A DNA stretch of 64,000 bases, taken from Streptomyces sp. 6-11-2. GTDB taxonomy: Bacteria > Actinomycetota > Actinomycetes > Streptomycetales > Streptomycetaceae. The notes beneath the pieces were generated by a model, which was not told where the DNA came from, did no database searches, and was given only the letters and a program-made list of their open reading frames with translations. The translations under genes were made by a program, and so were the position numbers. This document shows positions 4,824 through 57,442 of the stretch, one piece after another; position 1 is the stretch's first letter, and the number at the start of each line of letters is the position of its first letter. The DNA lies in contig NZ_BJOR01000001.1 of assembly GCF_006540305.1 (NCBI RefSeq), forward strand, positions 6,448,001 to 6,512,000, read 5' to 3'.

Positions 4824-5129
4824 GTGGGAAGCAAGAACAAACGCAGCAGGCGGTACACGGAGGAGTTCAAACGGGACGCGGTCGCGCTCGTTCGCTCCTC
4901 CGGGAAGACCGTCACCGAGGTGGCCCGGGAGATCGGGGTCAGCGCCGAGGGACTGCGGAACTGGGTCAAGCAGGACACGATCGACCGTGGGCAGGGGGCG
5001 CCGGGAGAGCTGACGACGGCCGAGCGTGAAGAGCTGCGCCGGCTGCGGAGGCTGGCCGCCGAGCAGGCGGAGACGATCGAGGTGCTGCGAAAAGCGGCGG
5101 TCTTCTTCGCGAAGGAGAGCGATCGATGA
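4824..5129 (+). CDS. IS3-family transposase OrfA (DNA-binding subunit)
   Basis: A 101-residue protein with the standard IS3 OrfA pattern: an N-terminal helix-turn-helix (RRYTEEFKRDAVALV, then TEVAREIGVSAEGLRNWVKQ) and a C-terminal leucine-zipper-like coiled coil (EELRRLRRLAAEQAETIEVL). It binds the element ends and is normally also fused to OrfB by programmed -1 frameshifting. The start is GTG at 4824, after GAGGAAG. It overlaps orfB by four bases (ATGA at 5126), so coupled initiation is also possible. Confidence 0.9.
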   Translation: MGSKNKRSRRYTEEFKRDAVALVRSSGKTVTEVAREIGVSAEGLRNWVKQDTIDRGQGAPGELTTAEREELRRLRRLAAEQAETIEVLRKAAVFFAKESDR

Positions 5130-14639: not shown

Positions 14640-15089
14640 CCTCCTGGGTGGCCGAGACCGGAAAGGATCAGTCGTACAGGCGTCCCAACAGGGCGAGTTG
14701 GTGCGAGACCCGACCGCCCTGGGCGATGGCCACGAAAAGAGCCTTCCAGCTCCGTGCGGACTCTGGGCGGACAGGTTGTCCATAGGAATCGTTGGTGAAC
14801 TCGGCTTACTTTCAGTCGAGTTGTGGTATCGGCGCGGGATTTTCGGTTGTCGGTTCGTCGTCCGGGCGAGGTGGCGTCCGTAGGCGTGGTCTACTGGGTC
14901 ACGGGTGTACGGAGGCGACGTATCGAGCGGCTGTTGCCGGTCCGCCGTTCGGCGGTTGCGTCCAGGGAAGTGGTGTACGGGTTCGACCTGATCCGGGGGT
15001 TTGTTCCGGCGTCGGGATGAGGCCCGCATAGACGAACGGCCACCGGCTGATCTTTCAAGACGACCAAGTCTTTGAAGGAGATCAGCACG
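14640..15089. other. Upstream flank and left part of an IS256-like segment
   Basis: Holds the left copy of a 20-bp repeat (14767-14786) and, on the reverse strand, a short tail ending VAIAQGGRVSHQLALLGRLY just before the radical-SAM remnant; this could be the end of a small peptide gene from the same lost cluster. AAGGAG at 15076-15081 is the ribosome-binding site of the transposase. The forward ORF 14823-15020 is not recognised. Confidence 0.4.
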
Positions 15090-36748: not shown

Positions 36749-36841
36749 TCACGAGGCGAGGGCTGGTCTGCCGCCCCAGCGGATGCCCAGGGGCGCGCCG
36801 AGGGGCCAGCAGACGGCGTAGACGTACCGCAGTCCGGTCAT
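36749..36841 (-). pseudogene. gvpL: gvpL, truncated after about 19 codons
   Basis: The ATG at 36839-36841 overlaps the gvpJ stop (ATGA). The frame begins MTGLRYVYAVCWPLGAPLG, which is the normal GvpL/GvpF N-terminus (x-L-x-YVYAV), but then reads unrelated residues to TGA at 36749-36751. A full GvpL is about 250 residues, so nearly all of it is missing, and gvpS and gvpK that should follow are gone. This marks a deletion breakpoint at about 36780. Confidence 0.82.
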
Positions 36842-37224
36842 GGTGCCTCTTTACGGGCACGGTCCTGGTCCACGCGGCCCCGCTCCAGGCGGTCCGGCTC
36901 CGGTCGGCCGCGGTCCAGCTCCAGTTCCTCCAGCCGCGCCAGCCGCTCGCGCAGCTCCGCGTTCTCCCGGGCGAGTTCGTCGCGGCGGGCGCGGGACGAG
37001 AGCGCCGGGTCGGTCTCCCACCAGTCGATACCCATCTCCTTGGCCTTGTCGACCGAGGCGATGACGAGCCGGAGTTTGACGGTGAGCAGTTCGATGTCGA
37101 GCAGGTTGATGCGGATGTCGCCCGCGATGACGATGCCCTTGTCGAGCACGCGCTCGAGAATGTCGGCGAGGTTGGCCCCGCTGCTCGGGCCGTACGGTTC
37201 GGGCAGTCGGCTGGGCGTCGTCAT
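36838..37224 (-). CDS. gvpJ: Gas vesicle protein GvpJ (GvpA-like)
   Basis: A 128-residue protein. The GvpA-type core occupies residues ~18-60: NLADILERVLDKGIVIAGDI and NLLDIELLTVKLRLVIASVD. A charged coiled-coil extension follows (RRDELARENAELRERLARLE). Streptomycete GvpJ/GvpS are minor GvpA paralogues thought to shape or nucleate vesicles. ATGA overlap with gvpZ upstream and gvpL' downstream shows tight coupling. Confidence 0.88.
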   Translation of the reverse strand: MTTPSRLPEPYGPSSGANLADILERVLDKGIVIAGDIRINLLDIELLTVKLRLVIASVDKAKEMGIDWWETDPALSSRARRDELARENAELRERLARLEELELDRGRPEPDRLERGRVDQDRARKEAP

Positions 37225-38345
37225 CGGCGGCCCCCGCCCTCGGCGTACTCGGGCTCTTCCTCTTCCTCGGCCTCCTCCTCCCCCTCAGGCTCTTCCTCCC
37301 CCTCGGGCTCTTCCTCCTCCTCAGGCTCCTCTTCGGGCTCTTCCTCTCCCTCGGGCTCCTCTTCGGGCTCTTCCTCCTCCTCAGGCTCTTCCTCGGCGTA
37401 AGGGCCCTCCTCCTCTTCGGGCTCCCCCTCCGTGCCCTCGGCGGCCTCCCGCTCCTCCTCCTCGACCGCGTCCTCGTGGCTGCGGACGACCTCGCCGTCG
37501 CGGATCTCGCCGCGCCAGCCCTCGTCGGCCTCTGCCTTGAGGGTGATGAAGCGGACGTAGTTCTTCAGGTCCAGCCGGGCGCGGCGGCCCTGGGCCCGCC
37601 AGATGTTCCCGGTCTTCTCGAACAGGCCGCTCGGGTAGTACTCCATGACCAGCAGGACTCGGGTGAGGTTCTCCTCCAGCCGGTGGAAGGAGACGACGCC
37701 CTTCGTGGTGCCCTTCGCGCCCTCCGACGTCCACTGGATGCGGTAGTCGGGCACCTGCTCGATGGTGTGGGCCTTCCAGCTTCGGCTGGACCAGAACACC
37801 TTCAGCTGCCAGTCGGAGTGGGTGTCGTCGGCGCGGCTCGCGCTCTTGACGCCCTTGGCGAAGGTGCTGAAGTCCTGGAACTGGGTCCACTGGTCGTAGG
37901 CGGTGCGCAGCGGCACGCCGACGTCGACGGACTCGATGATGACGATGGGCTTGTTGCCCCCGCCGCGCTTGCGCTTGCCCTTGCCGCCCCCGAGGCTCTT
38001 CAGCGCGCCCATGACGCTCTCCTTGGCACGGGAGGCGCCCAGCTCCAGGGCCGAGCGCAGCGGGCCCTTGCCCTCGGCGAGCTTGCGGCCGGTGTCGAGG
38101 GCGAGCTTGGCGAAGCCGGGGCTGTTGCCCTCGGCGATGTCGGTCAGCTTGCCGGTGGTCTCGCCGAGCTTGTGGCCGAAGCCGGCCAGCAGCCGTTCGG
38201 CCTGGGCTGCGAGGTAGTCCTGTGCTTCGGCCTTGAGCCGGTCGGCGGCCTCGCTGTGGGCGAGGTCGGTCAAGGGGTTGTTCTTCGTCGCGCCGCCCGC
38301 CGCCCTGTCGGCGGTGGAGGTCACGGATCCCAGAGCCTCGGTCAT
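37221..38345 (-). CDS. gvpZ: GvpZ, SRPBCC-domain gas vesicle cluster protein
   Basis: A 374-residue protein in three parts: an N-terminal helical segment (LAHSEAADRLKAEAQDYLAA); a START/SRPBCC ligand-binding domain (IVIIESVDVGVPLRTAYDQW, KVFWSSRSWKAHTIEQVPDY, VSFHRLEENLTRVLLVMEYY); and a very acidic repetitive tail of about 70 Glu/Pro/Gly residues made of EEEPEEEP/EGEEEP units. The tail is encoded by a TCCTCCTCGGG-like repeat that is slippage-prone. It corresponds to gvpZ of the streptomycete clusters; molecular role unknown. Coupled at both ends by ATGA. Confidence 0.85.
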   Translation of the reverse strand: MTEALGSVTSTADRAAGGATKNNPLTDLAHSEAADRLKAEAQDYLAAQAERLLAGFGHKLGETTGKLTDIAEGNSPGFAKLALDTGRKLAEGKGPLRSALELGASRAKESVMGALKSLGGGKGKRKRGGGNKPIVIIESVDVGVPLRTAYDQWTQFQDFSTFAKGVKSASRADDTHSDWQLKVFWSSRSWKAHTIEQVPDYRIQWTSEGAKGTTKGVVSFHRLEENLTRVLLVMEYYPSGLFEKTGNIWRAQGRRARLDLKNYVRFITLKAEADEGWRGEIRDGEVVRSHEDAVEEEEREAAEGTEGEPEEEEGPYAEEEPEEEEEPEEEPEGEEEPEEEPEEEEEPEGEEEPEGEEEAEEEEEPEYAEGGGRR

Positions 38346-39046
38346 CGGTCACCATCACCCTTCGGCCGCCGGGAGCGGGCAGCGCGGGTCGCGTCGCCGG
38401 CCGCGGCCGTCTTCTTCGCGGCCGGGCGCCCGGCCGCCGTCTTCTTCGCCGCCGCTTTCTTGGCGGGGGCCTTCTTCGCGGGGGGCCTCTTCTTGGCCGG
38501 TGTGTCCGCCGACACCTTCTCTGCGGTCTTCTTCCCGGGCGCCTTCTTGGCGGGTGCCTTCCTCGCGGGGGGCCTCTCCTGGGCCGCTTCCTTCCGGGCC
38601 GGTTCGCCCCGGTCTGCGGCCTCGCCCGCGGGCTCGGTCTCCTCCTCGGCCTCGCGGCCCTCCCGCTCCTCGTACTCGTCCGGGTACGCGTCCTCCCCCT
38701 CGGCCTCCTCCCCGCCGGGCTGTGGCACGACGCCGGCGAGCTCGTCGCGGACCTGCGCGGTCCGCCCGTGCAGCCGGTCGGCGAGCGCGTTCATCTGCCG
38801 TTCGACCATGGCCCCTGAGGCCGCCTTGCCCACGCCCCGCAGTTCCTCGCGCAGTTGATCCCCGATCTCCTTGAACTGCGGGTTGTTCACCATCTGCTGG
38901 TTGACCAGCTCCGCGATTCCGCGCGGGCCGAGGTTCAGCTTCTTGCCCGCCACCATGCTGCCCACGGCGAGGGCGAGTTTCGCTTTCTTCGTCCGTCCCA
39001 GGAGATATCCGGCCCCTACCGCGAGGCCGAGTGCCACTCGATTCAT
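38342..39046 (-). CDS. gvpY: GvpY, gas vesicle cluster protein with Lys/Ala-rich tail
   Basis: A 234-residue protein: a short N-terminal hydrophobic stretch (LGLAVGAGYLLGRTKKAKLA), a conserved GPRGIAELVNQQMVNNPQFK helical region, an acidic linker, and a C-terminal histone-H1-like tail built of AKKAPAKKA-type repeats. Order and overlap with gvpG and gvpZ match streptomycete gvpY. The basic tail might bind nucleic acid or the acidic GvpZ tail encoded next door (inference). Confidence 0.82.
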   Translation of the reverse strand: MNRVALGLAVGAGYLLGRTKKAKLALAVGSMVAGKKLNLGPRGIAELVNQQMVNNPQFKEIGDQLREELRGVGKAASGAMVERQMNALADRLHGRTAQVRDELAGVVPQPGGEEAEGEDAYPDEYEEREGREAEEETEPAGEAADRGEPARKEAAQERPPARKAPAKKAPGKKTAEKVSADTPAKKRPPAKKAPAKKAAAKKTAAGRPAAKKTAAAGDATRAARSRRPKGDGDR

Positions 39047-39306
39047 CGTGCTGTCCCCTCACCTGTCCCCGCGCCCCCGCGCATGCCGATCTCCAGCCGG
39101 TCCAGGAGCTCGTCCTCCCGGCGGTCGTATTCCTCCTCGGTTATCTCGCCCGCTTCCAACTTCTCTTCCAGTCGCGCCAGTTCGGCCCGTACCGTGGCCG
39201 GGTCGTAGTAGATGCGCTCGGCTTCGCGCAGTACCTGCCTGACTGCCCACGCACTGCCGCGCGCCGGAGCGAACGGCAGCAGCAGCACCTCGGAGATGAG
39301 ACCCAT
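39043..39306 (-). CDS. gvpG: Gas vesicle protein GvpG
   Basis: An 87-residue protein with the complete GvpG pattern: MGLISEVLLLPFAPARGSAW, VLREAERIYYDPATVRAELA and RLEEKLEAGEITEEEYDRRE. GvpG forms complexes with GvpF and other accessory proteins during assembly. Start ATG at 39306, four bases after the gvpF stop; the longer open frame upstream is a shadow of gvpF. Coupled to gvpY by ATGA. Confidence 0.92.
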   Translation of the reverse strand: MGLISEVLLLPFAPARGSAWAVRQVLREAERIYYDPATVRAELARLEEKLEAGEITEEEYDRREDELLDRLEIGMRGGAGTGEGTAR

Positions 39307-39310
39307 GGCG

Positions 39311-40081
39311 TCACTCCGCTCCCGCGTCGGCCCCCGCCGTGGTGCTCGCGGGCTCGGCGGGGCCGGGCTCGACGAAGCTGTACGGCGGCAGCGGGCCGTT
39401 GACGCGCAGATCGAGGTGGGGCAGGTCTTTGCGGGCCTCTTCGACGGCGGCCAGGAACTCGTCTGCCGAGCCCCGGTCCACCAGGAACGACGCGTTGACC
39501 AGCCAGCCGGTGGAGGGCGGGCCGTCGCTGACCGCGGCGGCCCGCGGCTCAAGGGCGTGCACGATCTCGCGGGCGTCGTCGGCCTCGCGGGCCTGTACGG
39601 CGGCCGCGACCAGCTCACCGAGCCGGAGCTTGTCTTCGTAACCTCCGCCGCCGGAGCGCCGGTTGGCCTCCGCCAGGGACCGGATCTCGGGGTTCTCGGC
39701 CATCACGCGGTGCAGCACCGCCTCCTCGACGTGACTGCCCTTGACGTTGTACTCGACCTTGCCGTCCAGCGCCCGAAGGCGCTCCTTGTAGTGCTCGGCG
39801 CGCTCGGTGAGCACGCCGGTGACGGTGTCGTCGTCCGGGGAGACACTGCCGAACCGCATCGGCAGCACGCAGCCGCCCGCGCCGGCCTCGCTGAGCACGC
39901 TCTGGTGGGCGAGCAGGTCCCGCCGTTTGGGGCGCAGCCCCTCGGGCGCGTCGCTGACGACCGCCGCCAGCTCGCCCGCCTTGAGGATGCGTATCCCGCG
40001 CGGCGGATCGCCTACACCGCCCATGCCCTCCGGCAGCGAGGGGTGCGTGGCGGCCGTGATCCCGTAGACGTACGTGCTCAC
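39311..40081 (-). CDS. gvpF: Gas vesicle protein GvpF (GvpL/GvpF family)
   Basis: A 256-residue protein beginning STYVYGITAATHPSL, with LKAGELAAVVSDAPEGLRPK, VLPMRFGSVSPDDDTVTGVL (the invariant LP-x-RFG motif) and EVEYNVK-like NVKGSHVEEAVL. GvpF binds the structural protein GvpA and is needed for assembly. It starts with GTG overlapping the gvpA stop (GTGA). With gvpL truncated, this is the only complete GvpL/F protein left in the window. Confidence 0.93.
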   Translation of the reverse strand: MSTYVYGITAATHPSLPEGMGGVGDPPRGIRILKAGELAAVVSDAPEGLRPKRRDLLAHQSVLSEAGAGGCVLPMRFGSVSPDDDTVTGVLTERAEHYKERLRALDGKVEYNVKGSHVEEAVLHRVMAENPEIRSLAEANRRSGGGGYEDKLRLGELVAAAVQAREADDAREIVHALEPRAAAVSDGPPSTGWLVNASFLVDRGSADEFLAAVEEARKDLPHLDLRVNGPLPPYSFVEPGPAEPASTTAGADAGAE

Positions 40082-40503
40082 TCCTGCTCCTCCCTCCGGC
40101 GCGCCGACGTAGGCTTGCGGGCCCGCGGCCGGGTCTCGTCCGAGTGCTCCTCACGGGCCTGCTTAAAGGCGTCGGAGACGGTCTCCGCGGCGCCGGACAG
40201 CGCGCCCTTGGCCTTGCCGCGCGCACCGGACTCGGTGACCTCGCCGACGAGGTCGGGCAGGCCCGGGGTCCTGTGCGGACCGGCCTCCAGATCGAGCCGG
40301 TTGCACGCCTCCGCGAAGCGCAGGTAGGTGTCCACGCTGGCGACGACGACACGCACGTCGATCTTCAGGATCTCGATGCCTACCAGGGAAACCCTCACGA
40401 ACGCGTCGATCACCAGCCCCCTGTCGAGGACGAGTTCCAGTACGTCGTAGAGGCCGCTGCTGCCGCCTCCGCCACCGGACGTCTGTGCCGGAACAACGGT
40501 CAT
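40078..40503 (-). CDS. gvpA: Gas vesicle structural protein GvpA
   Basis: A 141-residue protein whose residues ~15-62 are the GvpA fold: LYDVLELVLDRGLVIDAFVR and VSLVGIEILKIDVRVVVASV. It then extends with a longer charged tail (about 75 residues) than cyanobacterial GvpA. It forms the ribbed vesicle wall. It lies second in the operon after gvpO. Whether vesicles are made here is doubtful because gvpL, gvpS and gvpK are missing. Confidence 0.92.
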   Translation of the reverse strand: MTVVPAQTSGGGGGSSGLYDVLELVLDRGLVIDAFVRVSLVGIEILKIDVRVVVASVDTYLRFAEACNRLDLEAGPHRTPGLPDLVGEVTESGARGKAKGALSGAAETVSDAFKQAREEHSDETRPRARKPTSARRREEQE

Positions 40504-40555
40504 GCCAACCGCGCCTCCTTGTCTGTGTGTGGGACTGTGATTGCGAGCGGGCGGC

Positions 40556-40837
40556 CTAGTGGCCGCCGGGCCGGTGTGCGTCGGCGCGTCCGCGTTCGTA
40601 GCGGCGCAGGCGCCGGTAACCGGTGAGCTGCCCCTGCGGATCGAGTTCGACCAGGTAGCTCGCCATCAGGCTCATGGTGTCGGGCACTCGAACGAGTTCG
40701 AGGACCTCGACCTCCAGCGACCAGCCGTCCTCCGTCTGCCCGAACGACGTGACGGACTCGGCGGTCAGGCCGGTCAGCTCGGCGAACTGGGCGCGCGCCT
40801 CGCGCAGCACCTGCATCGGGCTCGGCCGGTGGCCCAT
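40556..40837 (-). CDS. gvpO: Gas vesicle protein GvpO
   Basis: A 93-residue protein with the GvpO pattern: REARAQFAELTGLTAESVTS, EDGWSLEVEVLELVRVPDTM and YLVELDPQGQLTGYRRLRRY. It heads the operon as in other Streptomyces. The ATG at 40837 is the only standard start in this frame, yet GAAGGAG lies about 25 bases away, and a 15-codon ORF with a strong site precedes it, so translation may depend on the leader. Confidence 0.88.
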   Translation of the reverse strand: MGHRPSPMQVLREARAQFAELTGLTAESVTSFGQTEDGWSLEVEVLELVRVPDTMSLMASYLVELDPQGQLTGYRRLRRYERGRADAHRPGGH

Positions 40838-46856: not shown

Positions 46857-47921
46857 TCACATAGGCGCGGATCCACCTGGCGAAAAGGCCAGACCACGGA
46901 AGGCGTTGCGTACGTCGGCCAAGGGCTGCCGGTCACGGGTGTAGTAAAGCTTGTTCGTCAGCAGTGCGGCCCACCGGCCTTGGCGGGGTGAGATCCATGT
47001 GCCGGTTCCGGTGAATCCGTAGTGGACCCAGACATCGTCGACTGGGGCGGTCCCGGGAGCGGTGTGCCAGAACAGGCCACGCACGGGTGCCAAGGTGCCG
47101 GTCTGGATGGTCAGTGACGTTGCGGTCCAGCCGGGGCCGAAGCCGGCTCGCTGCGGTGCGGTACTGGTGTCCAACATGTAGCGGAGGAAGGCGGCGAGGT
47201 CGTCGAGGACGGTGAAGGCGCCTGCGATGCCGCAGACGCCACCCAGGAGGCGTGCAGAGAAGTCGTGGGCGGTTCCCTTGAGGTGGGTGTCAGTGTCCCG
47301 GTCGAGTTCGGTCGGGGCACAGCGATCCGCGATCTGATCGGGCAGTGGGCCGAAGCGGGTGCTATCCATGCCCAGTGGTTGCCAGATGCGGACGGTGGCC
47401 AGATGGTCCAAGGTCTGGCCGGAGAGGCGTTCGGCGAGGTAGCCGAGGATGAGGGCGGCCCGGTCGGTGTACTCGACGGCCTCGCCTGGTGGCCGGTGGA
47501 GTCGCTCGTGCAGCACGCCTCGGCGGATGTCCTCCTTGTCGGTGCCGTAGAGGTTCTTCAGCTGGGCACGCAGGGGAAGGCCAGCCGTGTGCGTCAGCAG
47601 CTGACGGGTGGTCACGGCGTCGAGGGGCTGGCCGGAGACCTCCGGCCAGAAGGTGCCGAGCGGCTGGTCGAGGTCGAGGGCGCCGTCCTCCCACAGAGCG
47701 CCGATGCATGACCAGACGGCGAGGATCTTGGTGAGGCTGGCGGCGTCGAACACAGTGTCGGCGCGCATCGGCACGTCCGGCTCGTCGGGATCGAGGACAC
47801 CAGCGATGCCTTGGGCGCGGATGCCATTGGCGTCTCCGACGGCCCACACGGCGCCGGGGTACACCTTGTCGCGGACGCCTTCGTCGAGCAGGGCTTCGAT
47901 GCGGTCGATGTCGTACGTCAT
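46857..47921 (-). CDS. Serine hydrolase (class C beta-lactamase/esterase family)
   Basis: A 354-residue beta-lactamase-fold protein without signal peptide. The nucleophile motif SLTK is at residues 62-65 (DAASLTKILAV), the second motif is YTD in EYTDRAALILGYLA in place of Y-x-N, and HYGFTGTGTW stands for the KTG box. Cytoplasmic members act as esterases, transesterases or D-aminopeptidases rather than lactamases. It is the last gene of the reverse operon, 92 bases after the glycosyltransferase, and may edit an ester or peptide bond in the product (inference). Start ATG 47921. Confidence 0.85.
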   Translation of the reverse strand: MTYDIDRIEALLDEGVRDKVYPGAVWAVGDANGIRAQGIAGVLDPDEPDVPMRADTVFDAASLTKILAVWSCIGALWEDGALDLDQPLGTFWPEVSGQPLDAVTTRQLLTHTAGLPLRAQLKNLYGTDKEDIRRGVLHERLHRPPGEAVEYTDRAALILGYLAERLSGQTLDHLATVRIWQPLGMDSTRFGPLPDQIADRCAPTELDRDTDTHLKGTAHDFSARLLGGVCGIAGAFTVLDDLAAFLRYMLDTSTAPQRAGFGPGWTATSLTIQTGTLAPVRGLFWHTAPGTAPVDDVWVHYGFTGTGTWISPRQGRWAALLTNKLYYTRDRQPLADVRNAFRGLAFSPGGSAPM

Positions 47922-48013
47922 GGTCTCCCTCTTCGCTGGGGCATCCCGCCGGCCAGCGTAGTGACGTTCGCGGAGCGGGCCGGGTAGCGGCGTGGCGGAC
48001 CGCTCGGAACCGT

Positions 48014-49129
48014 TCAGGCGAGTTGGCGGCCGAGTTCGGTCAGGGATCGCGCGGTCGCCGAGAGTGGATAGCGTGCGGCGTTCGCGTAGCCCGCCTGCCG
48101 TAGGGCGGGCAACAGGCCGGGGGAAGTACGCAGCCGGTCGAGGTCACGGGTCAGGGCGGCAGAGTGGGTAAAGTCGGTGGCAACGCCAGAGGCAGCGAGG
48201 GCTTCGTTGAGGCCGGGCACGGGTTGGTAGAGGACAGGCAGACCACAGGCTTGAGCCTCCAGTGCGACCAGGCCCATGGCCTCCAGGGTGGTTGACGGCA
48301 TGACCAGTACGTCATGCCCGGTGAACGCTCTCCACAGCTGTGGACGGCGGAGCCAGCCGAGGTAGCGGGCTCTGACGCCGGCCCGTTGCAGTAGCGGAGC
48401 CAGGGCATGGAACTGGGCTCTGGGGGCGGCGATGCTCAGCTCGACGCCTGGCACCGGGGCCACACTCTTGACCAGGGCCTCGATGCCCTTCTCGGCGGTC
48501 AGCCGTCCTGCGTACAGCAGTCGTAGGTGGCTGGAGGACGTGCGAGTGGGGCGAGGCGGTGGATCGGTGAGCAGGTGGTCGGGGATGCCCCAGGGAATGC
48601 GGGTGATCTTTCGCCGGTCGACCTGTGGGGCGAGCTTGAGGAGGTGGTCGGCCATTGCCCCCGTCGGAACGACGATCGCGTCGGCGGCCCTGGCGGTCTC
48701 GCGCAGAACTTGGAGCTGGTCGCGGTGGGCCTCCGCGAAGATCAGGTCTGTGCCGTGGACCAAGGCGATGCGGGGATGCAGGGGGAGCGCCCGCATCAGG
48801 GCCGGAGCGGCACCGAAGACGAGGTGCTGCAGGTGCAGTACGCCGATCTGGGCCGGGTTGATTGCAGTCGCGAGAGCCCTGCGCAGGGCTGCGACGTAGC
48901 GGCCGAAGGCGGGACCCTCCAGACACTTCCCGGTCACGGGCAGCAGGTCGAGCCCGGTCGGGAGAGGGCGTCTGGGACTCGACGGGGCCAGCATGAACGC
49001 GCGTGCAGGGATGAGGGGGCGGTCGCCCGTGTAGAGGTCGAGGAAGAGTTCGACGCTGCCGCCGGGGCTTCCGGCGGGCAGGTCCAGGAAGGTGGCGGCC
49101 AGCGGCCCGGTAGCCGAGCGGGAGCTCAC
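48014..49129 (-). CDS. Glycosyltransferase family 4-like enzyme
   Basis: A 371-residue GT-B protein. The N-lobe shows LVHGTDLIFAEAHRDQLQVL; the linker IPWGIPDHLL leads to the donor lobe with LRLLYAGRLTAEKGIEALVK and VMPSTTLEAMGLVALEAQAC (the E-x7-E nucleotide-sugar motif). It transfers a sugar from a nucleotide donor to an unknown acceptor. It starts with ATG overlapping the stop of the dCTP-deaminase-like gene, so it belongs to the operon. A free-standing GT beside nucleotide enzymes suggests a glycosylated small molecule. Confidence 0.85.
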   Translation of the reverse strand: MSSRSATGPLAATFLDLPAGSPGGSVELFLDLYTGDRPLIPARAFMLAPSSPRRPLPTGLDLLPVTGKCLEGPAFGRYVAALRRALATAINPAQIGVLHLQHLVFGAAPALMRALPLHPRIALVHGTDLIFAEAHRDQLQVLRETARAADAIVVPTGAMADHLLKLAPQVDRRKITRIPWGIPDHLLTDPPPRPTRTSSSHLRLLYAGRLTAEKGIEALVKSVAPVPGVELSIAAPRAQFHALAPLLQRAGVRARYLGWLRRPQLWRAFTGHDVLVMPSTTLEAMGLVALEAQACGLPVLYQPVPGLNEALAASGVATDFTHSAALTRDLDRLRTSPGLLPALRQAGYANAARYPLSATARSLTELGRQLA

Positions 49130-49662
49130 AGGACACCTCCGGGAATCTCTTCGTAGAGGCGGGAAATGTCGATGCCGTCTGTCGACGCGTACTTGGCGGA
49201 TTGCTGCTGGTAGCTGACCGGGGCGCCGAAGGCCGTGAGGAAGACGAGCTTTCCGAAGGTCATCCCCGGATAGACGCGCACGGGCCGGGCGGCCCGGATT
49301 TCCAGGGTCCAGCGGATGGCGTGGCCCTGGTGTCCGAGCGGGGCTGAGACGTGGACCCAGATGCCGAGGGCGCCGATGGTTCGGTCGCCGTTGAGCATCT
49401 GTGCGTACGTCTCCGAACCGGTCTTCTCCAGCGTGACGCCGAGGTAGAGCATCTCGGGCTGCAACACCAGGCCGGTGGCGGGGATGGGCTGCTCGATGAA
49501 TGTGGTTGGGGTGGCGGCGTCGAGGTCACCGTCGCAGACGCGGAGTGTGTCGCCGAGACGCCAGTCGTAGGCATTCGGGGAGATCCGGGCGGGGTCGTAC
49601 GGCTCGATGGTGATCTCGCCGGTCTGGACGGCGGCGGCGATTGCGGGGCCGGTGAGGATCAC
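49126..49662 (-). CDS. dCTP deaminase-like protein A (keeps Glu, lacks SSxxR)
   Basis: A 178-residue dUTPase/dCTP-deaminase fold protein starting GTG ATC CTC (VILTGPAIAAAV), with ISPNAYDWRLGDTLRVC, GLVLQPEMLYLGVTLEKTGS, GIWVHVSAPLG and VYPGMTFGKLVFL. In E. coli Dcd the catalytic Glu138 sits in the G-x-x-LE segment; here WTLEI keeps it (residue 121). The Ser111/Arg115 segment (KSSLARLG), however, is GDRTIGALG, without Ser and Arg. GTGA overlap with the upstream paralogue. Catalytic competence alone is doubtful. Confidence 0.85.
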   Translation of the reverse strand: MILTGPAIAAAVQTGEITIEPYDPARISPNAYDWRLGDTLRVCDGDLDAATPTTFIEQPIPATGLVLQPEMLYLGVTLEKTGSETYAQMLNGDRTIGALGIWVHVSAPLGHQGHAIRWTLEIRAARPVRVYPGMTFGKLVFLTAFGAPVSYQQQSAKYASTDGIDISRLYEEIPGGVL

Positions 49663-50198
49663 GAGGCCACCGTCCGAAGTTTTGTAAGGTCGCGCCAGTA
49701 GGCCGACGGTCGGGGGCCCACGGCGGCCTGGTACTTGCCGTGGTAGAGGTCGATGGCGCCGGTGGAGACGAAGAACATGATCTGCCCGATCTTCATGCCC
49801 GTGTAGACGCGCAACGGGCGGATCGGGGAGAGCATCAGCGTCCACTGGCCGTGAAAGCCGATGTCTCCGATCGGGGCGGTGATCTCTACGAACAGGCCCA
49901 GTCGGCCGACGGAGGAGCGGCCGAACAGCAGCGGCACGAAGGTGTCGGAGCCGACATGTTCGACCGTGTGGCCGAGGTAGAGCTCGCCGGGCTGGAGTAC
50001 GTATCCGCCTTGGTCGATCTCGACCTCGTGGGTGGGGTTGGGGCGGTGAGCGTCGATCTCAGCGGCGGTGTAGGTCAGCAGCGTGGGGCCGAGGCGGACG
50101 TTGTAGCTGTTGGGGTTGACCTGGTCCGGCTCGAAGGGGCTGATGACCAGGCGGCCGTCGTGGGTCGCGGCGGTGATCTCGGGCCCGGTGAGGATCAT
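49659..50198 (-). CDS. dCTP deaminase-like protein B (keeps SSxxR, lacks Glu)
   Basis: A 179-residue paralogue of the neighbouring protein: MILTGPEITAATHDGRLVIS, VNPNSYNVRLGPTLLTY, GYVLQPGELYLGHTVEHVGS, FVEITAPIGDIGFHGQW. It keeps the substrate-binding FGRSSVGRLG (Ser95, Ser96, Arg99), yet the catalytic Glu position is Met (TLMLSP, residue 122). This is the exact complement of protein A. AGGAGG precedes the ATG at 50198, the strongest ribosome-binding site in the operon, and its ATG overlaps the preceding stop. Confidence 0.85.
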   Translation of the reverse strand: MILTGPEITAATHDGRLVISPFEPDQVNPNSYNVRLGPTLLTYTAAEIDAHRPNPTHEVEIDQGGYVLQPGELYLGHTVEHVGSDTFVPLLFGRSSVGRLGLFVEITAPIGDIGFHGQWTLMLSPIRPLRVYTGMKIGQIMFFVSTGAIDLYHGKYQAAVGPRPSAYWRDLTKLRTVAS

Positions 50199-51430
50199 TG
50201 TTCGCCTCCTTCGATGAGGCCGGCAGTGGAGGGGAAGGGCGTGGCCAGGACACTTCGTGCGGCCTGCCCCAGCCGCAGTCCGGCTTGATGCGTACGTCCG
50301 CCGAGGTAGCTGTCGGCGAGGTAGTCGGTGGTCAGCACGCTGCGTATCGCCGACGGCAGAGGCGTGGGAGTGATGACCAGCGGACCGACCCGTTCGGTGA
50401 GGTGGCCGAGCAGCTTGTCGTGGCCCTGGGTGTGCTCGTCGGGGAGGAAGGCGTGGACGAGCTGGTTGTCGAAGGGCTCGATGGACAGCAGGTCGCCGAG
50501 GGTCAGGATGTGGCCGAGCGGGGTGGGACGCAGGGCGGTCTCGTTGAGGATGACCGCGTCCGCGCCGAGACCGGAGTGCAGTCGGCCGGCGATCTCGGTC
50601 AGGAGGTGGCGTCGGTCCAACGGAGTATTGCGGTATGGCTCGTTCACTGTGCCGAGCGGGTTCGTCAGCGTCCGTGCCACGAGGGTGATCTCGTTGTGCA
50701 GTGCGGTGAGGCCCTCGGGGATCGCGGCCGAGTTCGGGAAGGTGCACGGGCGGGCGTCCCAGCCGCTGTCGACGGGCTCTGCGGTGGCGTATCCGAGGCC
50801 GAGTTCGTGGCCCTTGACGACGAGGGTGTCGCCGATGTGCACGGGACCGTAGGTATCGCTGTGACAGTGGCCGGAGAAGATGACGTCCACGAACGGGCAC
50901 GCGCCGGCGAGCTTCAAGCCCTCGTCGAAGCCGGAGTGGGACAACACGATCCAGGCGTCGGTGAAGTGATGGTGTTCCAGCATCACCTTCCGCAGGGCCT
51001 GTGCCGGATCGGTGACCTGATGGCCTGCGCGTTGGTCGACGGGAACCGCGTTGAACGCTTGCGGTCCGATCACCGCGGTGACGGCGACTCGACGGCCGCC
51101 GATGCGTTTGATGCGTACGCGGTCGAAGAGGGGCTTGCCGTTCTCGTCGACTGCATTGGCGCACAGGGTCATCTCGTGCAGCGCCGGCTCGAAGTAGTGC
51201 GGCCAGCCGTGGTTACCCGGTGCGAGCAGGTCGTAGAGGCCAGTGAGGACCTGGTGCTCGATCCGGCCGTTGCCCAACCGGTAAAAGCCGCTGCCCTCGA
51301 AGAAGTCGCCGCAGTCCACGATCAGGCTGTCGGCCCTGGCGTTGTGGAGGTGGGCGAGCATCGCTGCGGCCGAGTCGAAGGCGGAATGCACGTCGGTCGT
51401 GGCGATGATCCGCCGGAGCTGTCGGCTCAC
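50195..51430 (-). CDS. Metallophosphoesterase with 5'-nucleotidase-like architecture
   Basis: A 411-residue calcineurin-fold phosphoesterase. Metal-binding motifs in order: IIATTDVHSAFDS (D-x-H), LIVDCGDFFEGSG (GD), LLAPGNHGW (GNH), WIVLSHSGFDEG (H) and IFSGHCHSDTYG (GHxH). The second half (VILNETALRPTPLGHILTLG; PFDNQLVHAFLP) resembles the C-terminal substrate domain of UshA-type 5'-nucleotidases. No signal peptide, so cytoplasmic. It would remove a phosphate from a nucleotide-like intermediate (inference). GTG start at 51430 overlaps the preceding stop. Confidence 0.85.
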   Translation of the reverse strand: MSRQLRRIIATTDVHSAFDSAAAMLAHLHNARADSLIVDCGDFFEGSGFYRLGNGRIEHQVLTGLYDLLAPGNHGWPHYFEPALHEMTLCANAVDENGKPLFDRVRIKRIGGRRVAVTAVIGPQAFNAVPVDQRAGHQVTDPAQALRKVMLEHHHFTDAWIVLSHSGFDEGLKLAGACPFVDVIFSGHCHSDTYGPVHIGDTLVVKGHELGLGYATAEPVDSGWDARPCTFPNSAAIPEGLTALHNEITLVARTLTNPLGTVNEPYRNTPLDRRHLLTEIAGRLHSGLGADAVILNETALRPTPLGHILTLGDLLSIEPFDNQLVHAFLPDEHTQGHDKLLGHLTERVGPLVITPTPLPSAIRSVLTTDYLADSYLGGRTHQAGLRLGQAARSVLATPFPSTAGLIEGGEQ

Positions 51431-52746
51431 GGGGTGACCTCGCAGATGTCGGCGCCGAGGGCATGCAGCTTGGTCGGCAGGTCGGCATGGCCGCGCCGGA
51501 GCTGTTCGAGCCCGCCGAGGGTGGTGACGCCGCGAGCGGTGAGGCCGGCGATGAGCAGGGCGGAGCCCGTACGGATGTCGGTGGTCTCCACCCCGGCGCC
51601 GGTCAGCTGCTGTGGGCCGGTGAAGCGGCACTCGGTGGGTGAGAGCTCGTGGATCTCGGCACCCAGGCGCGCGAGTTGGGGCAAGAGGTTGCCGTGGCGG
51701 CCCGGGTTGATGGTGTCAGCGAACAGATGGGTGCCGGGGCGGGTGAGGGCAAACGCCATCAGCGGTGGTTCGAAGTCAGCGTCCAGACCGCCGGGGGAGA
51801 GGGAAGCGATGGCTCGCAGTGGCTTGTTGGCGGAGCGGGCGTCCCGGGCCTGCACAGCGAGCACGTCGTCCTCGGTGCCGGCGGGTACACCGAGCGACCG
51901 CAGGGCGTCGACCAGGGGAGCGACGTCATCGCCGCGTACGCCGAAGATGCGCGCGTCGCCACCAGTCGCCGCGACCGCACAGGCCAGCGTTCCGGCCTCG
52001 ATCTTGTCGCCGGGCACCCTCCAGGTGATGGTCTCCGTGGGGGCTGCCGGGTGCGGCGCGAGCGTCAGGACGGATTCGCTGACCCGGCACTCCCATCCGG
52101 CCACCTGCAGCGCTTCGACGATGCTGAGCACTTCCGGTGACAGGTTGGGCTGGCCAAGACGAAGCGGCCGTCCGGCTACGGCCGCACGCAGGAGAGCAGC
52201 GATGCTCGCGCCCCGAGAGCGGAAGGGCAGCATGATCGAAACCGTTCCGGTCCGGGCGGATGCTGCCTCCACGAGGTAGCCGTGATCGTCGACGGTCGTA
52301 CGGTCACCGAAGCGCTCGTAGACCTTGAAATGCTGCTCCATCCCGCGCTCCCCGATACGGCAGCCGCCCGGCCAGGGAAGTAGGGCTCGCCCGTAAGCAC
52401 CCAGCAGAGCGGGTACGAGGTAGTACGAGGCCCGGATGCGGGCGGCGGTGTCGGCATCAGGGACCGACTGGATTCTGTCGCTCGGCAGGATCACCACGGT
52501 GTGTGGATCGCTGACGGGGCGGGCCGCGTGCCAGCCGGCCTGCTGAAGCAGGGTGAGCATGGTCTCGACGTCTGTGTTGCTCGGAACGTTGCCCACATGC
52601 ACCGGTCGGTGCATGGCCGCGGCGGCGGCCAGCAGTGGCAACGCCGCGTTCTTGGACCCGTCGACACCAACGGAACCGGTAAGCGGGCTGCCGGGCCGGA
52701 TGGCGACTACTTCTGCTGCGACTGGGGGAACCCCTACGGCTGTCAA
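51427..52746 (-). CDS. MurA-like UDP-GlcNAc/UMP enolpyruvyl transferase
   Basis: A 439-residue EPSP-synthase-fold protein. It has SVGVDGSKNAALPLLAAAAA (the Lys-Asn pair of MurA) and LLPWPGGCRIGERGMEQHFK, with the active-site Cys at residue 129 where MurA has PGGCxIGxRPVD. RPVDLH is changed to RGMEQH, so the sugar-nucleotide acceptor may differ. Other family motifs are DKIEAGTLACAVAATGG and HLFADTINPGRHGNLLPQLA. Either a second MurA or, by analogy with NikO/PolA, an enzyme adding enolpyruvate to a nucleotide. TTG start at 52746 follows GAGGAG, three bases after the ATPase stop. Confidence 0.85.
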   Translation of the reverse strand: MTAVGVPPVAAEVVAIRPGSPLTGSVGVDGSKNAALPLLAAAAAMHRPVHVGNVPSNTDVETMLTLLQQAGWHAARPVSDPHTVVILPSDRIQSVPDADTAARIRASYYLVPALLGAYGRALLPWPGGCRIGERGMEQHFKVYERFGDRTTVDDHGYLVEAASARTGTVSIMLPFRSRGASIAALLRAAVAGRPLRLGQPNLSPEVLSIVEALQVAGWECRVSESVLTLAPHPAAPTETITWRVPGDKIEAGTLACAVAATGGDARIFGVRGDDVAPLVDALRSLGVPAGTEDDVLAVQARDARSANKPLRAIASLSPGGLDADFEPPLMAFALTRPGTHLFADTINPGRHGNLLPQLARLGAEIHELSPTECRFTGPQQLTGAGVETTDIRTGSALLIAGLTARGVTTLGGLEQLRRGHADLPTKLHALGADICEVTP

Positions 52747-52749
52747 CAG

Positions 52750-53181
52750 TCAACTCCTCTGCAAGGGAGGGCGCTGTGAGGGCTGGCAGGGGGTGCTCAC
52801 CTTGAACTCGGCCCAACAGCGCTTGCCTCGTGACACCTGATCGAATCCGTGGCGATCCGCGAGCGCGGCGACGAGAAACAGGCCGCGTCCTCCTTCCTCG
52901 TCCATGGCGGGCAGACCGACCTGCGGGACGTCAGGGCTTGTGTCTGTCACCTCGATCAGCAGACGTGCGTCGCTCAGGCGCGCGCCGGCCAAGATCGGCC
53001 CGTGTCCCGCGTGCCGTACCGCGTTCGTGATCAGCTCGGCGGCCACCAACTCCGCCGTGTCCAGGAGTTCCGGCCCCAGGAACGCATCCCAGTTCCGTAT
53101 CGCGCCCGCGAGCTGCCGCCGTGCGGCCGTAGCTGCAGCAGGTGTGCCGGAGACGGGAAAACGGACTTGGTGCACTTCCAT
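52750..53181 (-). CDS. RsbW-type ATP-binding regulator
   Basis: A 143-residue HATPase_c protein: VSGTPAAATAARRQLAGAIR, AELVAAELITNAVRHAGHGP (N box), LLIEVTDTSPDVPQVG and EEGGRGLFLVAALADRHGFD (G boxes). AGGAGG seven bases before the ATG at 53181 fixes the start. It heads the reverse operon and faces the XRE regulator gene. Pairs of an XRE protein and an RsbW-like ATPase are a recurrent Streptomyces signalling module (WhiJ/AbaA-type systems), so it probably modulates the divergent regulator (inference). Confidence 0.85.
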   Translation of the reverse strand: MEVHQVRFPVSGTPAAATAARRQLAGAIRNWDAFLGPELLDTAELVAAELITNAVRHAGHGPILAGARLSDARLLIEVTDTSPDVPQVGLPAMDEEGGRGLFLVAALADRHGFDQVSRGKRCWAEFKVSTPCQPSQRPPLQRS

Positions 53182-53253
53182 GAGTGACCTCCTGGATCGG
53201 TGCGGCTTCTCCACGCAACCGCGCCAGGCACCAGCGGAGCCAGGCCGTGTGCC

Positions 53254-53286
53254 GGAGCTGCATCACTTATGCAGGAGCTGCATCAC
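53254..53286. promoter_or_regulatory. Paired 13-bp direct repeats between divergent operons
   Basis: GGAGCTGCATCAC occurs at 53254-53266 and again at 53274-53286, start to start exactly 20 bases, about two helical turns. The interval also contains the inverted repeat TGCAT-CACTT-ATGCA (53259-53273). They lie between the ATPase start (53181) and the XRE start (53349). Likely operator for the XRE regulator. Confidence 0.65.
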
Positions 53287-53348
53287 AGCCAATCGCCCCT
53301 CGGTTACGCTCGGTTGAGCAGGCAGGATCGGCGACGGCAGGAGGAGCC

Positions 53349-54629
53349 GTGGCACAGATGGCCGAGGCACAGAGCGAGGCGAGACGGATCGGAGAAGTGA
53401 TCCGTCAAGCCCGCGTGTTACAGCGGCGCTCGCAGAAAGACGTTGCTGCCGCACTTGGGTATCACCAGTCGAAGGTGAGCCGCCTGGAGAGTGGCCGGGG
53501 TACCGATGATGTCCGCATGCTGCGCGAGGTCGCACAAGCGCTGGACATTCCGCTGCACCGCCTTGGCCTCGCTGCCGCGTCGAGTACCAGCACCTCGGAC
53601 CTTGAGGCAGAGGACATGCACCGCCGTACCTTCCTTGCCGCGGGCGTTGCCGCGCTCACGGTTCCGCCTTCGCCCGCCGCAGCGCATCACGATCTGGTTC
53701 AGGTCCTGCTGCCCAGTGCCAGTCCAGCGACCACGGGCCAAGCCTTGGACATCAATGGGCTGCGCGATCGGACACGGGCCGTACGGCGGTTGTTCTGCAC
53801 GTGCGACTACACCGAGTTGGAGCGCACCCTGCCGGGACTGATCGCCGACCTGCGCCAGGCAGCCGGCGGCTCATCCGGCACGGCTGAGGCATCCGGATTG
53901 CTCGCGACCGCGTACCAGACGTCAGTGAGCCTCTTGCTGAAGCGAGCGGATCAAGGCAACGCCTGGCTCGCTGCCGGTCGCGCCATGGCCGAGGCGGAGC
54001 GATCTGGAGACCCCGTCGTCCTCGCCGCCAGCGTCCGCGTTCACGCCCACGTCCTCGTCCGCGAGAAGCACACACCACAGGCCGTGAACATCATCCGCCA
54101 CACCGCCGACCAGCTCACCGGCTCCTACGACCAGCGGTCGCCGCGCTACCTGGCAGCGGTCGGCCTGCTTCTGCTCCGTGGCGCGACCGCAGCCAGCAGG
54201 AACGGAGACCGCGACACCACCGAGGACTTCCTCACCGAAGCCCGAGAGGTGGCTCGCTACGTCGCTTTCGACCGGCCCGACGCCTGGGCGAACTTCAGCC
54301 CCACCAACGTCGCCCTCCATCAGGTCAGCGCAGCTGTCTCCTTCGGTGACACAGGCATCGCCCTGGAAACAGCCCGGCCGCTCATGCGCCGGCACATCCC
54401 GGTCCCCGAGCGCCGTGCCGCCCTGTGGGTCGACGCCGCCCGCTCCTATAGCCAGCAGGGCCGCATCGCCGATGGGTACCAGGCGCTGCGCATCGCCGAG
54501 AGCTGCGCGGCCCAGGACATCCGCCGCCCCGCTGTCCGGGAGCTGGTCGCCGACATGGCCGCCCGCGATCGCCGCCGTACCCTGCCTGCACTGCACCACT
54601 TCAGCCGTCAACTGGGAGTCCCCGCGTGA
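53349..54629 (+). CDS. XRE-family regulator with TPR-like sensor domain
   Basis: A 426-residue protein. The helix-turn-helix is at residues ~10-70: IGEVIRQARVLQRRSQKDVA and LGYHQSKVSRLESGRGTDD. After a linker comes a hydrophobic/alanine patch (RRTFLAAGVAALTVPP) and a long all-helical TPR-like domain (LKRADQGNAWLAAGRAMAEA; AANFSPTNVALHQ-type repeats). GTG at 53349 follows AGGAGG by about five bases. It faces the biosynthetic operon across the repeat operator, and the next gene overlaps it (GTGA). It is the probable cluster regulator. Confidence 0.87.
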   Translation: MAQMAEAQSEARRIGEVIRQARVLQRRSQKDVAAALGYHQSKVSRLESGRGTDDVRMLREVAQALDIPLHRLGLAAASSTSTSDLEAEDMHRRTFLAAGVAALTVPPSPAAAHHDLVQVLLPSASPATTGQALDINGLRDRTRAVRRLFCTCDYTELERTLPGLIADLRQAAGGSSGTAEASGLLATAYQTSVSLLLKRADQGNAWLAAGRAMAEAERSGDPVVLAASVRVHAHVLVREKHTPQAVNIIRHTADQLTGSYDQRSPRYLAAVGLLLLRGATAASRNGDRDTTEDFLTEAREVARYVAFDRPDAWANFSPTNVALHQVSAAVSFGDTGIALETARPLMRRHIPVPERRAALWVDAARSYSQQGRIADGYQALRIAESCAAQDIRRPAVRELVADMAARDRRRTLPALHHFSRQLGVPA

Positions 54630-55183
54630 GCGACCAGCCCGACCAGCAGACCAAGAAGCCGTTCCTCTATGTCGTCGTGTGCGCCGCCGGAGTCGCCGGC
54701 GACGTCGGCAAGCTGATCACGGCCGCCCAGGAGGTGGACTGGGACGTCGGCGTCATCGCCACCCCGCAGGGCCTGGGCTTCATGGATGCCACGGCCATCG
54801 AGGCCCAGACCGGCTACCCGATCCGCTCTGCGTGGCGCTCCCCCGGCGATCCTCGTCCGCTGCCGCCCGCCGACGCCATCGCGGTAGCCCCGGCGACCTT
54901 CAACACGGTCAACAAATGGGCCGCAGGGATATCCGACACGCTCGCCCTAGGCATCCTGTGCGAGGCGTACGGCTTCGGCATCCCCACCGCCGTTCTGCCG
55001 TACGTGAACTCGGCGCAGGCCGCCCACCCCGCGTACGGACAGAGCCTCGACCGGCTGCGCGAGATGGGCGTCCTGATCGGCTCGTACGAGCCCCACCGGC
55101 CAAAGGTCGGCGGCGGGGCCGACCGCTTCCGCTGGGAGGAAGCGCTGGAGCTGCTCACCCCCAGGCTGCCCGAGCGGGTGTGA
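54626..55183 (+). CDS. Flavoprotein, phosphopantothenoylcysteine-decarboxylase-like
   Basis: A 185-residue HFCD-superfamily flavoprotein: FLYVVVCAAGVAGDVGKLIT at the nucleotide end, WDVGVIATPQGLGFMDA, and IAVAPATFNTVNKWAAGISD, the FMN-binding APATxNTxNKxAxGISDTL motif. The family decarboxylates C-terminal cysteine or related substrates, as in CoaC, EpiD and MrsD, or acts as an accessory flavoprotein. It starts with GTG overlapping the XRE stop, so it is co-expressed with the regulator. Its role in the cluster is unknown. Confidence 0.85.
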   Translation: MSDQPDQQTKKPFLYVVVCAAGVAGDVGKLITAAQEVDWDVGVIATPQGLGFMDATAIEAQTGYPIRSAWRSPGDPRPLPPADAIAVAPATFNTVNKWAAGISDTLALGILCEAYGFGIPTAVLPYVNSAQAAHPAYGQSLDRLREMGVLIGSYEPHRPKVGGGADRFRWEEALELLTPRLPERV

Positions 55184-56407: not shown

Positions 56408-57442
56408 GTGAGTGAGTATGACGGACACCAGTACGTCGGCATCGACCTGCATCGCAGGCGGTCCGTGATCGTGCGACAGACTGCTGAGGGAGAGCAACTG
56501 AGCACGGTGCGTATCCTCAATGACCCGGTCGCGCTGGGGCTTGAGATCGAGAAGGCGGGGAGCCGCCCGGACGTGGTGCTGGAGGCCACCTACGGCTGGT
56601 ACTGGGCGGTCGACGCACTGCGGGCCGCCGGGGCCGAGGTCCATCTCGCCCACCCGCTGGGCGTGAAGGGCTTCGCTTACCGGCGGGTGAAGAACGACGT
56701 CCGCGATGCCGCGGACCTGGCCGACCTGCTGCGCATGGGCCGGCTGCCGGAGTCCTGGATCGCCCCGCCCGACGTGCGGGAACTTCGCGAACTGGTGCGC
56801 TACCGGGCCAAACTTGTCGCGCTGCGCTCGGGCCTGAAGGCACAGGTCCACGCCGTGCTCGCAAAAGCCGGCGTGCTCATCGCCGTCTCCGACCTGTTCG
56901 GCTTCGACGGCCGCAGTCGGCTGGAGCAGACACCCCTGCCCGGCGCCTACGCCCAGCGCGTGACCTCCCTGCTGCACTTGATCGACATCCTCGACGCCGA
57001 GGTAGCCATCTTCGACCAGCGCATAGCCGGCCGGCTGCGCGGGCACCCCGGCTGCGGAGCCATCCTGTGGCTACCCGGCGTCGGCCCGGTGCTGGCCGCC
57101 GTCCTGGTTGCGGAGATCGGCGACGTGCACCGGTTCGCCTCCGCCGAGAAGTTGTGTTCTTGGGCCGGGCTGACCCCGCGCCACTACGAGTCCGACACCC
57201 TGGTGCGGCGCGGTCACGTCACCAAGCAGGGCAGCAGGCTGGTCCGCTGGGCGGCCGTGGAGGCGATCCAGCGGAAGGCCACTCCCAAGATCACCGGAGA
57301 CCGGGCCCGGATCGAGGCCCGCCGCGGCAAGAACATCGCCAAGGTCGCCGCGGCCCGCAAACTGCTCACCCTCGTCTACTACGGCCTGCGCGACGGGCAC
57401 ATCCGCGCGCTGGCCCGCTCCCTGGCCGAGCAGGCGGGATGA
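56408..57442 (+). CDS. IS110-family (DEDD) transposase
   Basis: A 344-residue Piv/MooV-type transposase. The N-terminal RuvC-like DEDD domain has YVGIDLHRRRSVIVRQ (first Asp), VVLEATYGWYWAVDAL (Glu) and KNDVRDAADLADLLRMG (Asp pair). The C-terminal Tnp_20 domain has ILWLPGVGPVLAAVLVAEIG and the conserved Ser region (SWAGLTPRHYESDT). GTG start at 56408, with GAAGGAGG directly upstream. The long non-coding flanks (56166-56407 and after 57443) are typical of IS110 elements, whose flanks can encode a bridge RNA. Confidence 0.93.
   Translation: MSEYDGHQYVGIDLHRRRSVIVRQTAEGEQLSTVRILNDPVALGLEIEKAGSRPDVVLEATYGWYWAVDALRAAGAEVHLAHPLGVKGFAYRRVKNDVRDAADLADLLRMGRLPESWIAPPDVRELRELVRYRAKLVALRSGLKAQVHAVLAKAGVLIAVSDLFGFDGRSRLEQTPLPGAYAQRVTSLLHLIDILDAEVAIFDQRIAGRLRGHPGCGAILWLPGVGPVLAAVLVAEIGDVHRFASAEKLCSWAGLTPRHYESDTLVRRGHVTKQGSRLVRWAAVEAIQRKATPKITGDRARIEARRGKNIAKVAAARKLLTLVYYGLRDGHIRALARSLAEQAG

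Follow-up and report, generated by a model that had tools for sequence, protein, structure and literature searches.

Relation to described systems

Bifunctional dCTP deaminase-dUTPases, such as those of M. tuberculosis (2qxx), B. halodurans (4xjc), and M. jannaschii (1ogh), share a common fold, an RSSxxR/KSSxxR loop, and an Asp/Glu region with two adjacent dCTP deaminase-like (Dcd) proteins encoded in Streptomyces sp. 6-11-2. The pair lies in a 64,000-nucleotide stretch of contig NZ_BJOR01000001.1 (positions 6,448,001 to 6,512,000; hereafter the window, to which coordinates refer unless a locus is named), within a reverse-strand operon encoding, in order, an ATPase, a MurA-like enolpyruvyl transferase, a metallophosphoesterase (MPE), Dcd1, Dcd2, a GT4-family glycosyltransferase (GT4), and a serine hydrolase (SHY). 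Whereas the described enzymes are single proteins, with both acids on the same chain in 2qxx and 4xjc, the operon divides the acids between side-by-side paralogues. The chains of the Agrobacterium 2'-deoxycytidine 5'-triphosphate deaminase (2r9q), at 327-342 residues, are about twice as long as a Dcd; this length and a target TM-score of 0.35-0.36 suggest that a single protein may here contain two Dcd-like units. Even so, 2r9q is one chain, while the operon pair is two proteins. Below, Dcd2 and its counterparts are called DcdA, and Dcd1 and its counterparts DcdB.

Adjacent Dcd genes are also listed in the phaseolotoxin cluster, where phtJ and phtK, both annotated as deoxycytidine triphosphate deaminase, are placed between desI (desaturase) and phtL (PPDK/phosphoenolpyruvate, PEP) (PMC3927611 Table 2). 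Further genes listed for that cluster encode an aminotransferase, a HAD hydrolase, and an L-amino acid ligase. Of 14 cluster genes that were mutated, 11 are reported to be required for the toxin; whether phtJ or phtK belongs to these is unstated in the passage, and no role for the two was seen there (PMC3927611). Phaseolotoxins and sulphostin are given as the known natural phosphosulfamates (PMC6429109). In contrast to phaseolotoxin-type clusters, the window operon has no PPDK, L-amino acid ligase, or sulfate-activation gene among its genes.

A MurA-superfamily enzyme beside nucleotide-handling genes, as in the operon, is what we take NikO and PolA to represent in the nikkomycin and polyoxin pathways; however, the operon core has no radical SAM gene, and its MurA-like protein shows no preferential similarity to NikO. 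The serine hydrolase fold presumably has a parallel within a nucleoside pathway in the CapW-type beta-lactamase-fold acyltransferases of capuramycin. A literature search covering titles and the beginnings of abstracts, with most subscription papers outside its reach, returned no description of this operon or of a split Dcd pair. What is new lies in the split pair and in how widely it occurs, the class of enzyme itself being known.

Complementary loss of catalytic acids in the Dcd pair

Both Dcd proteins score above the Pfam DCD cut-off. Against the NCBIfam dCTP_deam equivalog (cut-off 92.8 bits), Dcd1 lies above the threshold (98.7) and Dcd2 below it (62.6); a model of Dcd2 (predicted local distance difference test score, pLDDT, 80) matches Dcd structures with E=8e-13. 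An ordinary Dcd, such as the source genome's own (L147) or that of M. tuberculosis (2qxx), has RSSxxR or KSSxxR with Asp and Glu in one chain. Within the layout of the window operon (type A; the layout letters A-F are our own labels), Dcd1 combines RSSxxR with WTLM for WTLE in all 73 rows and, in a separate alignment, has kept the Asp in every one of 74 rows, whereas true Dcd2 rows have WTLE without RSSxxR (72 of 72) and, in that separate alignment, Dcd2 has His for Asp (73 of 74, the exception, L037, being a cross-match to Dcd1 at a contig end). The Dcd2 row of L037 and rows at least 25 residues off 179 (L058 and L091 for Dcd1, L019 and L058 for Dcd2) were left out of the 73- and 72-row counts. 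DcdB also keeps the KYQ..GP..S C-terminal stretch. Dcd enzymes with the substitutions E138A/E138D and E145A/E145Q appear in the titles of PDB entries, and we take these substitutions to concern the deaminase Glu at issue.

The division extends beyond type A. Among 20 DcdA/DcdB pairs (six of type A and fourteen from other layouts, Rhizobium included; L158 left out, and near-identical pairs such as L153/L160 counted separately), Glu is found in every DcdA and no DcdB, and Asp in every DcdB and no DcdA; the remaining acids are invariant in the DcdA and DcdB copies examined in the two alignments. At the Glu site, the fourteen DcdB proteins of other layouts all have Gln, and those of type A have Met. 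Among these pairs, only the DcdA proteins of types A and E, which are sisters (99/94), have lost the phosphate loop. Since a single branch separates DcdA from DcdB across the layouts (support 98/93), the duplication predates the layouts. This complementarity was absent from the original prediction, which had been made from the letters and reading frames of the window alone.

In L058 (12552-13203) the pair is apparently damaged by a deletion across the Dcd1 end and the Dcd2 start. A Dcd1-Dcd2 fusion, considered for L058 and L158, was rejected, because an internal deletion or decay of the copy seems to account for each; neither locus enters the pair counts.

Conservation of the operon

A scan of contigs from genomes with the MurA-like protein returned 82 relatives, the best 80 of which were used as loci (L019-L098). 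As this set was picked by the MurA-like gene, its counts measure only the companions of that gene. In 72 of the 80 loci, the six core genes MurA-like-MPE-Dcd1-Dcd2-GT4-SHY are all matched with order and strand unchanged, a collinearity that is not due to chance; six of the other eight loci stop at contig ends (L023, L037, L081, L087, L089, and L090). The seven-gene reverse operon read from the window, with its overlaps between 51430 and 49126, the 3-base gap between ATPase and MurA-like genes, and the divergent XRE regulator and flavoprotein, is borne out with Pfam confirmation, and the co-occurrence of its genes in other genomes, a check named in the original prediction, is widespread. The operon is real.

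The XRE regulator, the flavoprotein, and the ATPase are each matched in 71 of the 80 loci, and all nine genes in 66. The flavoprotein is missing from six of the 72 complete cores and is consequently placed outside the core. Five loci with the full core (L083, L085, L086, L095, and L098) lack matches to all three and, as read by eye, have other XRE-like and ATPase-like genes; for L085, the only one of them with Pfam confirmation, a HATPase_c_2 gene occupies the ATPase place, and the XRE-like gene has helix-turn-helix and DUF5753 domains. The Promicromonospora locus (L092) has a HAD-like gene upstream, again as read by eye. Regulators thus vary between loci, and the biochemical core consists of six genes.

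The operon is a patchy unit. The MurA-like gene is present at E <= 1e-60 in 13 of 150 related genomes, source genome included; of 394 class-level genomes, 54 match at 1e-42, of which only four (again including the source genome) reach at least 70% identity, the others listed having 31-35%. S. hokutonensis has three copies, three other strains have two each, and a 208 kb Streptomyces plasmid bears the full set of nine genes.

Outside the window, near a Mutator-type transposase, the C-terminal part of the MurA-like protein is matched by two short stretches that overlap (G000:C1:6514053-6514322; L135:6056-6223). They are the remnant of a second MurA-like copy about 13 kb beyond the intact gene.

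The MurA-like enolpyruvyl transferase

The MurA-like protein scores 243.8 bits against the NCBIfam MurA equivalog, below the cut-off of 392.7. It had been conceivable that it was the only MurA of the genome and a housekeeping enzyme; two other full-length MurA homologues are present, and its family forms one side of a branch apart from housekeeping MurA (Shimodaira-Hasegawa approximate likelihood ratio test, SH-aLRT, 100; a quick tree without bootstraps, in which two long branches, L002 and L003, meet, the latter being the second MurA-like gene of the source genome). Rows of at most 400 residues were left out of the alignment used for residue conservation, in which one housekeeping row is apparently mistranslated.

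The catalytic and PEP-contact positions (C, K, N, R, and D) are invariant in all 78 MurA-like rows; we take them to correspond to K22, N23, R91, C115, R120, and D305 of E. coli MurA. The acceptor region shows invariant letters of its own: RGM followed by E, D, or N; FRSR; LDADFEP; and N-x-G-R-H-x-N. The changed segment is presumably the region of uracil and diphosphate contacts in E. coli MurA. The motif RGMEQH had originally been taken to favor a substrate outside peptidoglycan synthesis. Its P-to-G change is not diagnostic, because G also stands there in seven of 26 comparison MurA rows; the acceptor region as a whole does differ, and the letters that mark the family are the invariant M, FRSR, and N-x-G-R-H-x-N. 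As the catalytic positions are invariant while the acceptor region is distinct, the protein is probably an enolpyruvyl transferase with an acceptor other than that of MurA.

A special kinship with NikO is weakened: in a comparison by bit scores against the NikO entry 4fqd only, the MurA-like protein reaches 89.8 bits and one of the genome's own MurA proteins 79.5, while MurA structures score 113-149 bits against the MurA-like protein. By this measure the protein is not markedly NikO-like.

The phosphatase

A model of MPE built from 19 sequences (pLDDT 89) has a two-domain fold with 3ive and 3ivd as its best Foldseek matches (E=1e-24; TM-score 0.73-0.74 by query), and its top three structure matches are E. 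coli 5'-nucleotidase with cytidine or uridine. Despite this two-domain match, the C-terminal domain has no Pfam match. Because identity to the matched structures is only 16-18%, we infer the substrate of MPE rather than read it off; the modeled fold favors nucleotide chemistry.

Dcd pairs outside the operon

Dcd pairs recur in clusters of unlike content, for which gene names are taken from record annotation or by eye unless Pfam is stated. Type B clusters (L154 and L196) contain relatives of the window MPE (27 and 30% identity) and GT4 (32 and 38%) together with TauD, and in L154 also PIG-L and WbqC. In type C (L155, L156, L157, L159, L161, and L162) the pair is accompanied by a methyltransferase, sugar-nucleotide genes, a larger GT4, and, in several loci, a P-loop kinase-like gene, which falls under Pfam cut-offs in L155 and L162. 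Type D comprises the Rhizobium loci L153 and L160, with a methyltransferase, NUDIX, and a phosphoesterase. Type F (L194) has a kinase-like gene, a deaminase-like protein (under the Pfam cut-off), an AMP-binding/condensation protein, and HAD; L152 represents a further layout. Separate deaminase-like genes in L153, L155 (over the cut-off), and L194 (under it) hint that the Dcd pair is not simply the deaminase of these clusters. Beside one type C cluster, which is carried by an S. globisporus plasmid, lie pieces of MurA-like and GT4 genes of type A (L162:16663-16933).

In type E (L193 and L195, genomes G1014 and G014), DcdB is fused to PPDK_N and PEP-utiliser domains, and both loci encode DUF6001 and ATP-grasp. 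L193 adds a type I phosphodiesterase and DUF6031; L195 adds a desaturase, a class III aminotransferase, and LAL_C2, the last being found among type E loci in L195 only. These Streptomyces loci have several kinds of genes, and in both cases PPDK domains, in common with the phaseolotoxin cluster as listed, and by gene content they resemble the phaseolotoxin and sulphostin pathways. The tie of the Dcd pair to phosphorus-nitrogen chemistry is an analogy of annotation and gene content only.

A DcdA-like query against 72,556 plasmid records identified 11 records, ten of them with at least two Dcd places. The label of single-gene relatives, at first considered for some DcdA-like proteins, was dropped in view of these ten records; the ten such proteins used in the tree group on the DcdA side. 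All 11 plasmid records with a DcdB match of at least 46% identity have at least two Dcd places, and five more distant ones (35-39%) have one each.

A census of 392 Streptomyces genomes with a DcdB profile found 66 loci of at least 249 bits in 60 genomes (an ordinary Dcd scores about 110), leaving out two partial DcdB pieces below this line (G852:C166 and a broken second copy in G023). A second, lower-scoring Dcd-like match occurs on the same contig for 64 of the 66 (hand count); a frameshifted second gene in L197 (G989) brings this to 65, and the last locus, in G939, lies at a contig end. By order alone, 48 partners are directly downstream, as in type A, eight directly upstream, and eight at 4-10 kb; they are read as DcdA only where the locus sequence was inspected. 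Among 296 class-level genomes, four have a DcdB match (source genome included), all of the same genus and with two genes each.

Proposed function and alternatives

Read from the sequences, the operon has a conserved six-gene core, differing regulators, and two catalytic acids on different paralogues. With confidence a little above even, we favor its interpretation as a mobile pathway under regulation that makes a small metabolite derived from nucleotides. It would be one layout within a wider class of clusters marked by a heteromeric Dcd-like enzyme. From the complementary losses we infer that DcdA and DcdB may combine in a single trimer-like enzyme. In Dcd and dUTPase proteins, the clefts between subunits hold the active sites (PMC4827122). 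For this reason, the working phosphate-binding loop of such a type A enzyme would have to come from DcdB. It would be joined in the DcdAB complex with either acid on the base side: Glu where DcdA faces the site, Asp where DcdB does. The complex might bind a pyrimidine nucleotide, with deaminase-type and diphosphohydrolase-type chemistry divided between the subunits, or catalyze a new reaction. The MurA-like enzyme would move an enolpyruvyl group from PEP onto a hydroxyl of the intermediate, the 5'-nucleotidase-like MPE would take off the 5'-phosphate, GT4 and the serine hydrolase might add or trim a sugar or acyl group, and XRE and the ATPase would control expression. The combination of DcdAB with a 5'-nucleotidase-like enzyme and an enolpyruvyl transferase suggests a pyrimidine-nucleotide route.

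Several observations weigh against this interpretation. Two of the 80 loci have incomplete cores with more than 8 kb of further sequence available: L028 contains the MurA-like and MPE genes only, and L078 the MurA-like gene alone. In G097 (L134:8873-10458), the ATPase stands beside a 53% identical MurA-like gene with Ser for the catalytic Cys, and 19.9 kb of sequence holds no other core gene. Within the operon core, neither a transporter nor a gene for self-resistance could be recognised. Type A DcdA, being without its own phosphate-binding loop, could be a structural or regulatory subunit; the assignment of cleft residues to subunits is one that we presume from the dUTPase structure; and the 20 pairs are related by descent, not independent.

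A nucleotide-sensing or scaffolding heteromer of DcdA and DcdB without enzymatic activity, with the other genes making a non-nucleotide glycoconjugate, is an unlikely alternative. Each subunit has lost one catalytic acid and the phosphate loop is degraded in DcdA of types A and E, as such a role would allow; but a pure scaffold has no need of the remaining acids, which are invariant in the copies examined, and a 5'-nucleotidase-like partner recurs in type B. That the operon modifies the envelope, the MurA paralogue, GT4, and the penicillin-binding-protein-like hydrolase altering peptidoglycan or the spore wall, appears quite improbable. While MurA homology and a weak match of SHY to PBP4B (72 bits, cut-off 385) point that way, no signal peptide was seen by eye in SHY or MPE, the presumed uracil and diphosphate contact region differs from that of MurA, and the two Dcd proteins are left unexplained. 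A nucleotide-depletion anti-phage system, which the original prediction had set beside a glycosylated nucleoside-type metabolite, is very improbable: dCTP deaminases do serve in phage defense, and the patchy distribution, the plasmid copy, and the two or three copies in some strains would fit, but none of the DcdB copies examined has the deaminase Glu, four conserved neighboring enzymes are of other kinds, and PADLOC matched neither Dcd (a weak negative, as an ordinary Dcd was also missed), so that depletion is unsupported.

For the nucleotide-derived metabolite, a further step may be taken tentatively, though we hold it to be doubtful: DcdAB could be a new, obligate two-subunit nucleotide enzyme older than its clusters, for which a nucleotide of cytidine or uridine serves as the carrier or scaffold. 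Its chemistry might be of the phosphorus-nitrogen kind, by analogy with phaseolotoxin-like clusters, and the type A product could be an enolpyruvylated, glycosylated member of a hidden natural-product class. The DcdA-DcdB pair offers a simple genomic handle for unlike clusters in Streptomyces, other actinobacteria, and Rhizobium, and the complementary loss of catalytic acids yields a sharp prediction of a heteromer with split chemistry. If this is right, an enzyme pair of a known toxin pathway would be tied to a larger group of uncharacterised clusters.

Gene features and genomic surroundings

The nine genes are present in the 8.7 Mb genome at the positions and on the strands first read from the window, and Pfam confirms the named family for each (Table 1). 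The XRE regulator and flavoprotein genes diverge from the reverse operon. Stop/start overlaps of 4 bases join MurA-like to MPE, MPE to Dcd1, Dcd1 to Dcd2, and Dcd2 to GT4. The TTG taken as the MurA-like start follows the ATPase stop by 3 bases; this start is uncertain, and the annotated plasmid copy is shorter. For Dcd2, the GTG at 49662 is the most likely start (178 residues), in preference to that of the longer mechanical open reading frame. Because a 92-base gap separates GT4 from SHY, the latter is assigned to the same transcript from its conserved order, and probably belongs to it.

Table 1. Genes of the operon and its divergent neighbors in the window
Feature	Position	Strand	Basis and remarks
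HATPase_c_2 (RsbW-type) anti-sigma-like ATPase, probable regulator	52750..53214	-	PF13581, E=3e-14
MurA-like enolpyruvyl transferase, TTG start uncertain	51427..52746	-	PF00275
5'-nucleotidase-like metallophosphoesterase (MPE)	50195..51430	-	PF00149; structure model
Dcd1 (DcdB)	49659..50198	-	PF22769; retains RSSxxR and the dUTPase-type Asp; Met in place of the deaminase Glu
Dcd2 (DcdA)	49126..49662	-	PF22769; retains the deaminase Glu; His in place of the Asp; degraded phosphate-binding motif NGDRTIGALG
GT4-family glycosyltransferase	48014..49129	-	PF00534 and PF13692; E-x7-E motif by eye
Class C beta-lactamase-fold serine hydrolase (SHY)	46857..47921	-	PF00144, E=2e-48; SLTK motif
XRE regulator, NsdA-like TPR	53184..54629	+	PF01381; NF053720 below its cut-off; true start probably ~53349
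PPC-decarboxylase-fold flavoprotein, overlapping the XRE stop	54626..55183	+	PF02441

Elsewhere in the window, gas vesicle genes occupy 36838-40837; a scan of two of the proteins gave GvpO and Gas_vesicle domains. Transposase genes are found at 2064-3314, 4824-6019, 15072-16328, and 56408-57442, with the Mutator family represented twice, IS110 once, and 4824-6019 appearing IS3-like by eye. The region of the window looks like a genomic island.

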